Source of the DNA: Dethiobacter alkaliphilus
GTDB taxonomy: Bacteria; Bacillota; Dethiobacteria; DTU022; UBA8154
DNA length: 64,000 bases
Assembly: GCA_016841605.1 (NCBI GenBank)
Contig: JAENYV010000002.1
Span: 186,001-250,000, forward strand
Direction: 5' to 3'
Below the pieces are notes generated by a model that ran no database searches, was not told the origin of the DNA, and saw only the letters and a list, made by a program, of their open reading frames with translations. Shown here piece after piece: positions 4,685 to 49,284 of this stretch (position 1 is its first letter; the number at the start of each line of letters is the position of its first letter). The translations under genes and the position numbers were made by a program.

Positions 4685-5428
4685 CTACAGGGAAAGCCCT
4701 CCGTCAATGGATAAGACAGTTCCGGTCAGATACCCGGCACCCTGAGCTAAAAAAAGGACAACCTCGGCTACTTCTTCCGGCTTCCCGTATCTTTCCAATG
4801 CTACGTGGGATAGAACTTTTTCTTTTACAGCTGCCGGTAAATCCTCCGTCATTTCCGTTTCGATAAATCCCGGAGCTATCGCATTAACAGTTATGGCTCT
4901 CTTGCCAAGTTCCTTGGCTAAAGATTTTGTAAAAGCGATCACGCCCCCCTTCGCAGCAGCATAGTTTGTCTGGCCGCTATTGCCGACCAATCCGGCAATA
5001 GAAGAAATATTTATAATCCGGCCTCCGCTTTTTTGCTTTAACAAAGGTTTAAGAACCGCTTTACAGCAGTTGAACATCCCCTTAAGGTTGGTATCCAAAA
5101 CAATATCCCAATCGTCCTCTTTCATTAACGCCAGTAAGGTATCTCTCCTGATACCGGCATTATTAACCAGTATATCAATTCTCCCAAAATGATCAAGAGT
5201 TGTTCTTACCATTTTCTCACATTCAGCAAGAACAGTAACATCGGCCTGAACAAGTAAACCTTTTCCCTTCTCCTCTTCAATTTTTTTTAAAACTTCTTCA
5301 GCCGCACCTGCTTCCCGGTGATAGTTGATAGCCACGGCTGCCCCGGCCCGGACAAGAGTTAAAGCAATCTCTTTGCCGATGCCCCGGGATCCGCCGGTTA
5401 CAATGGCGACTTTCCCCTGTAAAGTCAC
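4685..5428 (-). CDS. fabG: 3-oxoacyl-[acyl-carrier-protein] reductase
   Basis: NADPH-dependent reduction of 3-oxoacyl-ACP. Short-chain dehydrogenase with the cofactor motif TGGSRGIGK at 11-19, NNAG at 89-92, and the catalytic set N115, S142/S143, Y156 and K160. Length 247 is standard. Its start overlaps the fabD stop by 4 bp (ATGA type), which indicates translational coupling. Confidence 0.98.
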   Translation of the reverse strand: MTLQGKVAIVTGGSRGIGKEIALTLVRAGAAVAINYHREAGAAEEVLKKIEEEKGKGLLVQADVTVLAECEKMVRTTLDHFGRIDILVNNAGIRRDTLLALMKEDDWDIVLDTNLKGMFNCCKAVLKPLLKQKSGGRIINISSIAGLVGNSGQTNYAAAKGGVIAFTKSLAKELGKRAITVNAIAPGFIETEMTEDLPAAVKEKVLSHVALERYGKPEEVAEVVLFLAQGAGYLTGTVLSIDGGLSL

Positions 5429-6366
5429 AGCGAAACCCCCTCCAGACGATTTAACAGTTTATTTAAGGTTTCCCCGTTTTCAACATGGAAGGCCGGAACA
5501 TTCCTGTTAATCTTTTTCATAAACCCGGTCAATGCCCGACCAGGTCCAACTTCGATAAAAAAATTATAACCTTCTTTGATAAGAAGCTCAATAGAATTTT
5601 CCCATAAAACAGGGTTAAAAACTTGTTTAACCAGGGAAGCTTTAATTTCTTGCGGGTCGCTCAGATACTGTGCATTGATATTGGCCACAAAAGGAATAAC
5701 CGGCTTTCTCAAAAAAATATTTTCCAGGAGCTCGGTCATCTTTCCTTCAAGAGAGGCTAGCAGACGGCTGTGAAAAGGCGCACTGACCGAGAGCATAACT
5801 GTTTTGGCCTTTTTCCCTTTCGCCAGGCGGCAGGCTTCCTCCAGGGCTTCCCTGTAGCCTGCAATAACAATCTGCCCCGGGCAGTTAAAGTTAACAGGCT
5901 CTACATGACCGACGGGAAGTGCCTCCCGGCATAAAGAAACAACCTCCTCGGAATTTAAACCCAAAATAGCGGCCATACCCCCCTTTCCGGAAGGAACCGC
6001 CTCCTGCATATAAATAGCTCTTTTTTGGACAAGAGGAAGGGCATCGGCAAACGTTAAAGATCCTGCACAAACCAGAGCGCTGTACTCTCCCAGACTTAAA
6101 CCGGCTGTCCCGTCCGGGAAAATTCCTCTCTCCCTGAGAACAGCTAAAATGGCTATACTGGTCGTGAGCACTGCGGGCTGTGTTATTTCCGTCTGACGTA
6201 GTTGTTGTTCATCTCCGTCAAAGATGATCCTGCTTAAGCCAAAACCCAGAACATCGTCGGCTTCTTCAAAAATTTCCCTTGCTCCGGCAGAAATATTTGC
6301 CAGATCCTTTCCCATTCCAATATATTGTGCCCCCTGTCCGGGAAAAATAAAAGCACATTTTACCAT
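5425..6366 (-). CDS. fabD: Malonyl-CoA:ACP transacylase
   Basis: Loads malonyl groups from CoA onto ACP. The 313-residue protein has the oxyanion-hole motif FPGQGAQ at the N-terminus, nucleophile S91 in GLSLGEYSA and the catalytic H199 in APFHSR. Its 3' end overlaps fabG by 4 bp. Upstream, 384 bp separate it from fabH. This is far longer than other junctions in this cluster, and the gap is filled by a repeat copy and a GC-rich structured element. Confidence 0.97.
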   Translation of the reverse strand: MVKCAFIFPGQGAQYIGMGKDLANISAGAREIFEEADDVLGFGLSRIIFDGDEQQLRQTEITQPAVLTTSIAILAVLRERGIFPDGTAGLSLGEYSALVCAGSLTFADALPLVQKRAIYMQEAVPSGKGGMAAILGLNSEEVVSLCREALPVGHVEPVNFNCPGQIVIAGYREALEEACRLAKGKKAKTVMLSVSAPFHSRLLASLEGKMTELLENIFLRKPVIPFVANINAQYLSDPQEIKASLVKQVFNPVLWENSIELLIKEGYNFFIEVGPGRALTGFMKKINRNVPAFHVENGETLNKLLNRLEGVSL

Positions 6367-6387: not shown

Positions 6388-6424
6388 GATGTCAGAAGTC
6401 TGTGTGCCGGCAGGCCGGAAATAC
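6388..6424 (+). repeat. Dispersed GCCGG repeat, copy A
   Basis: The segment reads roughly GTCAGAAGTC, then TGCCGGCAGGCCGGAAATA. Close relatives occur at 18061-18095 and, inverted, at 12885-12911. The shared core is TGCCGG-N2-GGCCGGAA preceded by an AGAAGTC or AGATGTC block. It lies directly upstream of fabD. It looks like a small intergenic palindromic repeat rather than coding sequence; only three copies are visible here, so the family is an inference. Confidence 0.45.
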
Positions 6425-6501
6425 TACTAAAAACAATACTACAACGAAAATTTGCTTGTTTTACTAAACCTCTAATCTACTCCGTATACATTAGGCGCTC
6501 G

Positions 6502-6739
6502 GGTGAAGTGTCGGGCAAGGTGCGACTTTTTCCGGCCGTGCAAAGTCCCGGCGAAGCGCAGGCCGGAAGCTTACCCTGCAGACAGGACGTCTGCAGCCGG
6601 CTCGCTGCCATGGAGGGCAGCGAGCCGGGTAGGTAAAGCGAAGGTCTAAGCAGAACCGCAGGACTTGCAGGCTGGAAACCGGAGCACCGGTCCGGCGCTT
6701 TACCCGAACGCCCCGAACGAACCGCGTCCCCATTTCACC
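6502..6739 (+). ncRNA. Candidate structured noncoding RNA between fabH and fabD (unassigned; possibly HEARO/omega-RNA-like)
   Basis: A GC-rich island in an otherwise AT-richer gap, with nested inverted repeats. Closing stem 6502-6510/6731-6739 (9 bp, one G-T). Stem 6532-6537/6561-6566, with extra pairs on both sides and an inner TGC/GCA. Perfect 8-bp hairpin 6576-6583/6589-6596. Perfect 13-bp hairpin 6597-6609/6616-6628 with a 6-nt loop. Perfect 9-bp stem 6632-6640/6696-6704 enclosing a 5-bp hairpin 6678-6682/6687-6691. CGGG at 6512-6515 could also pair with CCCG at 6547-6550. Unpaired parts are A-rich on the plus strand, so I favour plus-strand RNA, although the flanking genes are minus. The 5' stem begins at GGTGA; HEARO elements are reported to insert next to ATGA/GTGA, but no IsrB-like gene is present. 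The family is not established. Confidence 0.5.
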
Positions 6740-6750
6740 ACTAATTACTA

Positions 6751-7740
6751 CTACCAGTTCAAAGCTGCCGCTCCCCAGGTCAAACCTGCGCCAAAGGAGA
6801 CCAGGGCAAGCAGGTCCCCTTGTTTGAGCTTTCCCGCCTCAAAAGCTTCATCCAGAAGAACAGGGATTGCGGCGGAAGACATATTTCCGTAACGATGTAT
6901 ATTTGTTAAAACCTGCTCGTCGTTCAGCCCCAATCTTTTGCAGGCTGAATCGATAATGCGGATATTTGCCTGGTGAGGAGCAATATAGCTTATATCGGCC
7001 GGTTTTTTACCACACATATTTAGAACATTGGTAGTCGATTCCACCATTATTTTAACAGCAAATTTAAAAATTTCAGGGCCGTTCATTTTTACATAGTGCG
7101 CTCTTTCTTCCAGTGTCTTCAGTGTAGGCGGGCGGCGGGATCCTCCGGCCGGAATATCGAGAAGTTCCGCCTTTGTACCATCGGAAAACATTTTGGAAGC
7201 CAGTATACCCCTGCCCTCCTCCACTTGTTGCAAAACCACCGCTCCCGCGCCGTCGCCAAAAAGCACACAAGTATTCCGGTCCGTCCAATCGACAATAGGT
7301 GAAAGTGTGTCCACCCCGATAAGCAGAATATTTTTCGCCGCCCCGGTTTCAATAAACTGTTGGCCGACTGTCAGCCCGTAAAGAAAACCTGTACACCCTG
7401 CAGCCAGATCAAATGCTGCTGCCCTGTGTGCATTGAGCCTTGCCTGGACTAAACAGGCTGAAGAGGGTAGAAGCTGGTCCGCAGTTACCGTGGCTACAAT
7501 CAATATATCGATCTCTTCCGGTTTCAAAGCCGCCCTTTCCAAAGCTATCCGCGCGGCAATTTCAGAAAGGCTGGAGTTTGTTTCCGTCCCGCTGATGATT
7601 CTCCTCTCTTTAATTCCTGATCTGGAAGTTATCCATTCATCACTGGTTTCCACGATATATTCCAGTTCCCGGTTGGTTAATCTGCACACAGGGAGGGCTT
7701 TTCCCGTTGATACGATACCAGCTTTTCTCCCGGTTTTCAT
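6751..7740 (-). CDS. fabH: 3-oxoacyl-[acyl-carrier-protein] synthase III
   Basis: Starts fatty acid synthesis by condensing an acyl-CoA with malonyl-ACP. The 329-residue protein has the KAS III triad: C116 in AAGCTGFLYG, H256 in PHQANIRI and N286 in RYGNMSSA, the last followed by the conserved AAIP. The start overlaps the plsX stop by 4 bp. The cluster is plsX-fabH then fabD, but the link to fabD is broken by a long structured gap. Confidence 0.98.
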   Translation of the reverse strand: MKTGRKAGIVSTGKALPVCRLTNRELEYIVETSDEWITSRSGIKERRIISGTETNSSLSEIAARIALERAALKPEEIDILIVATVTADQLLPSSACLVQARLNAHRAAAFDLAAGCTGFLYGLTVGQQFIETGAAKNILLIGVDTLSPIVDWTDRNTCVLFGDGAGAVVLQQVEEGRGILASKMFSDGTKAELLDIPAGGSRRPPTLKTLEERAHYVKMNGPEIFKFAVKIMVESTTNVLNMCGKKPADISYIAPHQANIRIIDSACKRLGLNDEQVLTNIHRYGNMSSAAIPVLLDEAFEAGKLKQGDLLALVSFGAGLTWGAAALNW

Positions 7741-49013: not shown

Positions 49014-49049
49014 GATTAAAAATAAAATCCCGTCCTGCTAGGGACGAGA
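49014..49049 (-). terminator. T-box attenuator terminator of ileS
   Basis: TCTCGTCC and GGACGGGA (49042-49049/49028-49035, one G-T) with a 6-nt loop, followed by TTTTATTTTT on the minus strand. Formed when tRNA-Ile is charged. Confidence 0.88.
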
Positions 49050-49278
49050 CTTTTCCCGCGATACCACCCTTTTTGTTAGGATTAATAAATAAATCATAAC
49101 CCCTTCACGCTTTAACGCAGCTTTTTTACGCTTATTTCTACTTACCCTGCCGTGAACGGGGTTTTGGAAATAAGAACTCCCGGGTGATCTTCAGCCTGGA
49201 CCGCCACGCCGGCTTTCACCTGATCCGGCTCTCTAAAGAGGTAAGAAACCAAGCTTACTATCCCGTTCATTGTTTGTA
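49014..49278 (-). promoter_or_regulatory. T-box riboswitch, isoleucine-specific, upstream of ileS
   Basis: Minus-strand leader with the diagnostic T-box AGGGTGGTATCGCGG (about 49057-49071), whose 5' part pairs with the uncharged tRNA acceptor end. Stem I shows the distal GGTGAAAGCCGGC region and a probable specifier ATC at 49186-49188 (GAAGATCACC), an Ile codon matching the downstream gene. A terminator hairpin follows the T-box. It fills the 400-bp gap between divIVA and ileS together with the promoter. Confidence 0.93.
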
Positions 49279-49284
49279 ACAATC

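Follow-up and report, generated by a model that had tools for sequence, protein, structure and literature searches.

The junction between fabH and fabD in Dethiobacter alkaliphilus is interrupted by a mobile element, a MITE, which with high probability carries an RNA of the TwoAYGGAY type (RF01731). We consider MITEs carrying a CsrB-type RNA with predicted CsrA binding to be the best reading of this element and its relatives, with a probability of roughly 0.58. The window analysed here is a stretch of 64,000 nucleotides from the D. alkaliphilus genome (G000), and plain coordinates refer to it. The features of the element, all given on the plus strand, are the following:

6389 to 6750, plus strand: inserted segment between fabD and fabH (junction comparison with relatives, flank alignment with congener G002)
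6437 to 6452, plus strand: left terminal inverted repeat (TIR) TACTACAACGAAAATT, consensus CACTACAGCGAAAAAT (TIR comparison over 30 copies, pattern search)
6494 to 6503, plus strand: 5' arm of the outermost conserved RNA/DNA helix, pairing with 6703-6712; the helix is kept as GGCGCTCGGG/CCCGAGCGCC in other copies
6703 to 6712, plus strand: 3' arm of the outermost conserved helix (inverted-repeat and copy comparison)
6542 to 6667, plus strand: conserved RNA core of the TwoAYGGAY type (R1 covariance model match of 126.7 bits, covariation)
6560 to 6647, plus strand: central stem (6560-6564 with 6643-6647, 6569-6575 with 6632-6639) with a GGA/GAA (tandem-GA-like) internal loop (alignment, pair counts)
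6576 to 6596, plus strand: hairpin 1, CTGCAGAC-AGGAC-GTCTGCAG, loop GGA at 6585-6587, candidate CsrA site
6597 to 6628, plus strand: hairpin 2 with an ATGGAG hexaloop (ANGGAN), GGA at 6612-6614, candidate CsrA site

A GC-Rich Insert Interrupts the fab Operon

The genes fabD (5425-6366) and fabH (6751-7740), both on the minus strand, bracket a GC-rich, hairpin-rich segment. A Pfam check of the neighbours returned the acyltransferase (FabD), ketoacyl-ACP synthase III (FabH), and PlsX families. The operon is tight elsewhere, with overlaps at plsX-fabH and at fabD-fabG, and the fabH-fabD spacing is 384 nt in the window versus 37-40 nt in the congeners G001 and G002. The junction is short and uninterrupted in all 14 relatives inspected. 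The overlapping neighbours and these empty sites bear out the interruption of the operon, which had been suggested by an earlier reading of the DNA made from its letters alone (hereafter, the sequence-only reading). The flank CACAATACAG, which runs to position 6388, can be aligned with G002; since the shared sequence resumes there, the foreign part spans approximately 6389-6750, wider than the 6502-6739 first proposed.

The GC content is 0.60-0.66 in the insert versus 0.39-0.46 in its flanks. The plus strand folds with -145.8 kcal/mol (z = -8.9 against shuffled sequence) and the minus strand more weakly (z = -5.7), so that the strongly folding, GC-rich insert is real. Inverted-repeat analysis recovered the perfect stems described before, namely 13 bp at 6597-6609/6616-6628, 9 bp at 6632-6640/6696-6704, and 8 bp at both 6576-6583/6589-6596 and 6530-6537/6561-6568. 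The supposed 9-bp closing stem at 6502-6510/6731-6739 turned out to be complementary at only eight of nine positions and is not a conserved closing stem; the outermost conserved helix is the one formed by 6494-6503 and 6703-6712.

The Insert Is a MITE

The insert is a MITE, as its multiple copies, terminal inverted repeats, and flanking TA indicate, and it has been mobile. It combines the features by which MITEs are recognized: it is short, non-coding, and multicopy, with TIRs, target duplication, and empty sites. The 4.07-Mb genome G000 holds about 17 near-full copies that are 76-93% identical to the window copy, and additionally about 20 partial copies or fragments, giving about 40 matching places altogether. 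Intact copies measure 300-330 bp. After the copies had been oriented, terminal inverted repeats (N)CACTACAGCGAAAAAT/ATTTTTCGCTGTAGTG(N) were found beyond the span of the sequence-only reading. In the comparison of 30 copies, TA adjoins 12 of 13 left ends and 10 of 12 right ends. Six copies that retain two ends and measure 158-332 bp (L003, L004, L005, L006, L017, and L029) have TA on either side. Elements with the same ends that lack the RNA or are internally deleted are also present.

The copies are intergenic, and a crude, ORF-based count of their orientation relative to genes (11 co-directional, 9 antisense, 8 convergent, and 2 divergent) revealed no strand bias. The search for an autonomous transposon with the ends of the MITE, which covered the DDE_3 family, found none, and the single DDE_3 transposase gene of the genome has no matching ends. 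The phages, plasmids, and viral contigs searched contained no match to the element.

The window copy has kept its left terminal repeat and lost the right one by a deletion near the fabH stop. A promoter and terminator scan of the window segment predicted no promoter and returned nothing notable. Because it lies antisense to the fab genes, has no predicted promoter, and has lost its right end, the window copy is probably an immobile passenger and may be silent.

Two further observations concern the host genome. A second dispersed repeat, like GGGGACACACCTCT..AGAGGAATGTCCCC, lies beside several copies (flanks of L002, L011, L015, L020, and L023), which suggests nested insertions of another element. 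With its 4.07 Mb, G000 also approaches double the genome size of its congeners (2.1-2.4 Mb), in which 0-3 copies of the RNA occur.

The Core Is a Conserved RNA Structure

The core of the element is a conserved, covarying RNA structure on the plus strand. In an alignment of 36 cores, 89.8% of the cells pair (20-41% if the alignment is slid), with changes on both sides in 20 of 32 pairs. From this alignment we built the covariance model R1. Among 100 cores aligned to R1, 93.4% of the cells are paired (22-43% if slid), with compensatory changes in 30 of 32 pairs; this alignment was fitted to the R1 structure and hence leans towards it. The copy number, the TIRs, and the covariation, including homologous copies with compensatory changes, uphold the earlier suggestion of an inserted, mobile, structured RNA element. 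Relatives from other genera share the same architecture with different sequences.

As for the two hairpins, 97.7% of the cells of hairpin 1 are paired, with compensatory changes, and its GGA is conserved at 97-99%, while the GGA of hairpin 2 is conserved at 94-100%. Over the 100 copies, both loop GGAs thus stay at 94-100% against changing stems, a comparison with some circularity since R1 itself contains GGA. When folded without constraints, 82 of the 100 cores formed exactly two GGA hairpin loops. Two or more such loops appeared in 19 of 500 composition shuffles and not in a single one of 100 reverse complements. Most copies have a GGA/GAA or GAA/GAA internal loop below the hairpins, and several unpaired positions besides the GGAs are likewise conserved. 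G-U pairs exceed A-C mismatches in the stems (162 versus 65, or 37 versus 24 when counted once per position), which favours an RNA of the plus strand over a strand-symmetric DNA hairpin. The GGA loops on one strand only and the G-U excess agree with the plus strand as the functional one, as had been proposed.

In many G000 copies, the left arm of hairpin 2 has CTCG and the right arm CTTG, leaving two mismatches; the mix looks like recombination between GGCTCG/CGAGCC and GGCAAG/CTTGCC forms.

The RNA Is a Probable Diverged Member of the TwoAYGGAY Family

The only Rfam family that rises on the element is RF01731, TwoAYGGAY (Weinberg 2010, PMC2864571). The window copy scores 29.1 bits (threshold 43), and two close relatives reach 32 and 40 bits over the full model (positions 1-168) against the same threshold. 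In the window scan, no Rfam family matched the element at gathering level. We filed the RNA as TwoAYGGAY because loci found by R1 in other lineages pass the RF01731 threshold, with 46.2 bits (full length) and 50 bits elsewhere in the phylum. In Desulfofustis glycolicus, the copies score 39-48 bits with R1 and 36-44 bits with RF01731, one of them above threshold (44.1). Judged from these scores, the RNA is a diverged member of TwoAYGGAY whose window copy falls below the curated cut-off. Of the idea that it represents an undescribed RNA class, the novelty of the class does not hold, the family being a described one; what stands is a divergence well beyond the reach of the Rfam threshold.

Two adjacent hairpins with (A)YGGAY-type loops, a closing stem, and a tandem-GA internal loop are common to the RNA and the family, and relatives of the window copy align to the model at full length. 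The loop of hairpin 2 reads ATGGA(N), and that of hairpin 1 A(U)GGAC, in which one base is frequently absent. Tandem GAs are named as a feature of TwoAYGGAY in a passage of PMC4333381. The window RNA differs by a longer, GC-rich outer stem and by being multicopy within TIR elements, a trait that goes without mention in the passages of open papers naming the family. These passages list the family or model its structure, and those on TwoAYGGAY, on CsrA together with MITEs, and in a MITE review contain no report of a mobile TwoAYGGAY. The novelty of a mobile TwoAYGGAY is judged against such passages of open papers.

A resemblance to the c-di-GMP riboswitch (GCAAAG) was dropped, as no such model matched. 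Across the window, a T-box leader at 49037-49279 on the minus strand (124 bits) is the sole Rfam match to exceed its threshold.

The RNA Occurs in Other Lineages and Other Vehicles

R1 matches were found in 24 of 60 close genomes, in 28 of 98 genomes of the class, and in 36 of the 398 phylum genomes sampled, where eight candidates per genome were scored and copy numbers are therefore minima. Among the close genomes, with candidates capped at 58, the counts amount to at least 58 copies in G003, at least 57 in G021, and 20-23 in G000, G008, G012, and G015. Outside the phylum, the cultured Desulfofustis glycolicus (Desulfobacterota) has 29 copies. Pattern matches in Lysobacter, Microbacterium, an archaeal MAG, and others had weak or no model scores and are probably due to chance.

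Judged from the element ends, the vehicle varies by lineage and the RNA stays. In G228, eight near-identical copies constitute an element of about 290 bp that has TGAYTCYACTGCRAAAA ends together with direct repeats some 6 bp long (e.g., ATTATT and AAGTTT), and the element ends in G319 contain the unlike sequence GGTGGCTTTTGC. Putative lineage-specific ends CATTTTCAT/ATGAAAATG were also seen in G003 and G008. Upstream of the RNA, copies in G003, G008, and G012, which represent another group of genera, share a conserved block of about 55 nt, CATTTTCATATTAACCGCCATGACCCT..GGGTCACAACAATGGATGAAAATG (e.g., L049 1372-1415 and L058 1372-1430), which may be an element end, a promoter, or a second MITE.

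A divergent RNA pair was found in synteny beside asd in G000 and G001 (77.5% identity over 1 kb); Pfam identifies asd in G000, and sequence similarity does so in G001:

L019 1197-1671 and L032 1532-1923: divergent RNA pair near asd, with one member only in asd-leader orientation

The pair looks like a vertically kept gene pair. The MITE may have picked up its RNA from this pair in the G000 lineage, the direction being inferred.

The evidence gathered so far bears on a rather unlikely alternative, in which the element is an ordinary MITE without RNA function and its fold a by-product of palindromic DNA aiding transposition through hairpin extrusion or transposase recognition. Strong folds are indeed frequent in MITEs, template switching at the DNA level can keep the arms of a palindrome complementary, partial copies are abundant, and the copies have no orientation bias towards genes. 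What this alternative leaves unexplained is the conservation of GGA loops on one strand only, the excess of stem G-U over A-C (weaker per position), the recurrence of this core in Desulfobacterota and, in other lineages, within vehicles whose ends are unrelated, and the syntenic pair beside asd in two species.

Predicted CsrA Binding

Proteins of the CsrA family recognize GGA within hairpin loops, preferably as ANGGAN (RsmE/CsrA site), and the SELEX consensus for CsrA is RUACARGGAUGU (PMC7652899). The core has two GGA hairpin loops, in keeping with CsrB-type RNAs, where such loops come in pairs or greater numbers, and TwoAYGGAY shares the Rfam clan CL00106 with CsrB of E. coli. On the strength of two strong motif matches, the motif-annotation study PMC4333381 predicted that TwoAYGGAY is an sRNA bound by CsrA. 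The sequence of hairpin 1 is ACA(U)GGACGU, closed by AC/GU; G021 has the full hexaloop, and most of the others lack one base of it. Hairpin 2 has the ANGGAN loop but is not closed by the AC/GU that the SELEX consensus contains, and its stem is long and stable in the window copy. The 5-nt loop of hairpin 1, together with the closing and stem of hairpin 2, may weaken CsrA binding. Taking a MITE with a TwoAYGGAY-type RNA as given, our analysis moderately favours CsrA binding.

Three csrA genes are present in G000, one of them beside fliW, and D. glycolicus has one. Among the close genomes, csrA occurs in 15 of 24 carriers of the RNA versus 7 of 36 non-carriers (Fisher p = 0.001 without kinship correction; p = 0.03 when restricted to genomes of 90% completeness or more), an association confounded by kinship. 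No csrA was found in some carriers, namely G003 (at least 58 copies, 89% complete) and G028, G033, G040, and G045 (92-96% complete), and CsrA may therefore not be needed everywhere. Within G000, fliW and the csrA beside it are separated by a truncated element copy that runs antisense to this csrA (L014 1472-1660, G000:C22:146060-146248), and the two further csrA genes lie 7-9 kb away.

If MITEs carry a CsrB-type RNA, suitably placed copies would be transcribed, and the two adjacent GGA loops would bind one CsrA dimer. The RNA could then act as a CsrB-like decoy or render a host mRNA responsive to CsrA, and the MITE, moved in trans by a transposase, would spread it. Such an RNA would resemble CsrB/RsmB-type sRNAs (CsrB RF00018, clan CL00106) in its clan, in the GGA of its hairpin loops, and in presumed CsrA sequestration. 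CsrB is one gene with many sites, whereas the window RNA has two predicted sites and many dispersed, mobile copies. The Coxiella elements QMITE1/2, as described in part of PMC5896051, are likewise short TIR elements with strong folds in tens of copies, some of which yield sRNAs; that part reports no known RNA family or CsrA site for them, and the window RNA core, unlike QMITE1/2 as described there, is older and wider than its vehicle.

Also unlikely is a TwoAYGGAY-type RNA whose function does not involve CsrA, such as binding of another protein to the loops, RNA-RNA kissing, or an RNA role in transposition. This alternative would fit the carriers that seem to lack csrA and the conserved unpaired positions other than the GGAs, but the most conserved unpaired positions are those of CsrA sites, and two such sites lie next to each other, an arrangement shared with known CsrA-binding RNAs.

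Very improbable is a cis-acting leader of the fab operon or another fixed gene set. Rfam types TwoAYGGAY as Cis-reg, and one member of the asd-side pair is co-directional with asd; however, the window RNA and the fab genes occupy opposite strands, the junction is empty in 14 relatives, and the neighbours checked for low-copy members share no common pathway.

HEARO RNAs (RF02033) are carried by IS200/IS605-type elements, which lack TIRs and TA flanks such as those found here. A remnant of a HEARO/IsrB guide RNA, one of two origins proposed by the sequence-only reading, has a negligible chance: the element is mobile, structured, inserted between genes, and begins near GGTGA, but it has no IsrB, its TIRs with TA are not IS200/IS605-type ends, GGTGA is not a conserved boundary across copies, and RF02033 gave no match in the window (E-value up to 10) or in 16 related loci (up to 1).

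Implications

Since 2010, TwoAYGGAY has remained an orphan among RNA families. R1, the model derived from the window, widens it greatly, across the phylum sample and into Desulfobacterota, and the family is now seen as a high-copy mobile passenger. Desulfofustis glycolicus DSM 9705, with its 29 copies and single csrA, is a cultured organism suited to a direct test of CsrA binding. Our results suggest that jumping DNA spreads regulatory decoy RNAs around bacterial genomes. More tentatively, and on balance doubtfully, transposable elements of several bacterial lineages might, independently of each other, have captured a CsrA-decoy RNA and multiplied it to tens of copies, a "distributed CsrB" in which titration of the host CsrA is encoded by scattered, evolving selfish elements. 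If CsrA binding proves true, transposable elements would be linked to global post-transcriptional control in bacteria.
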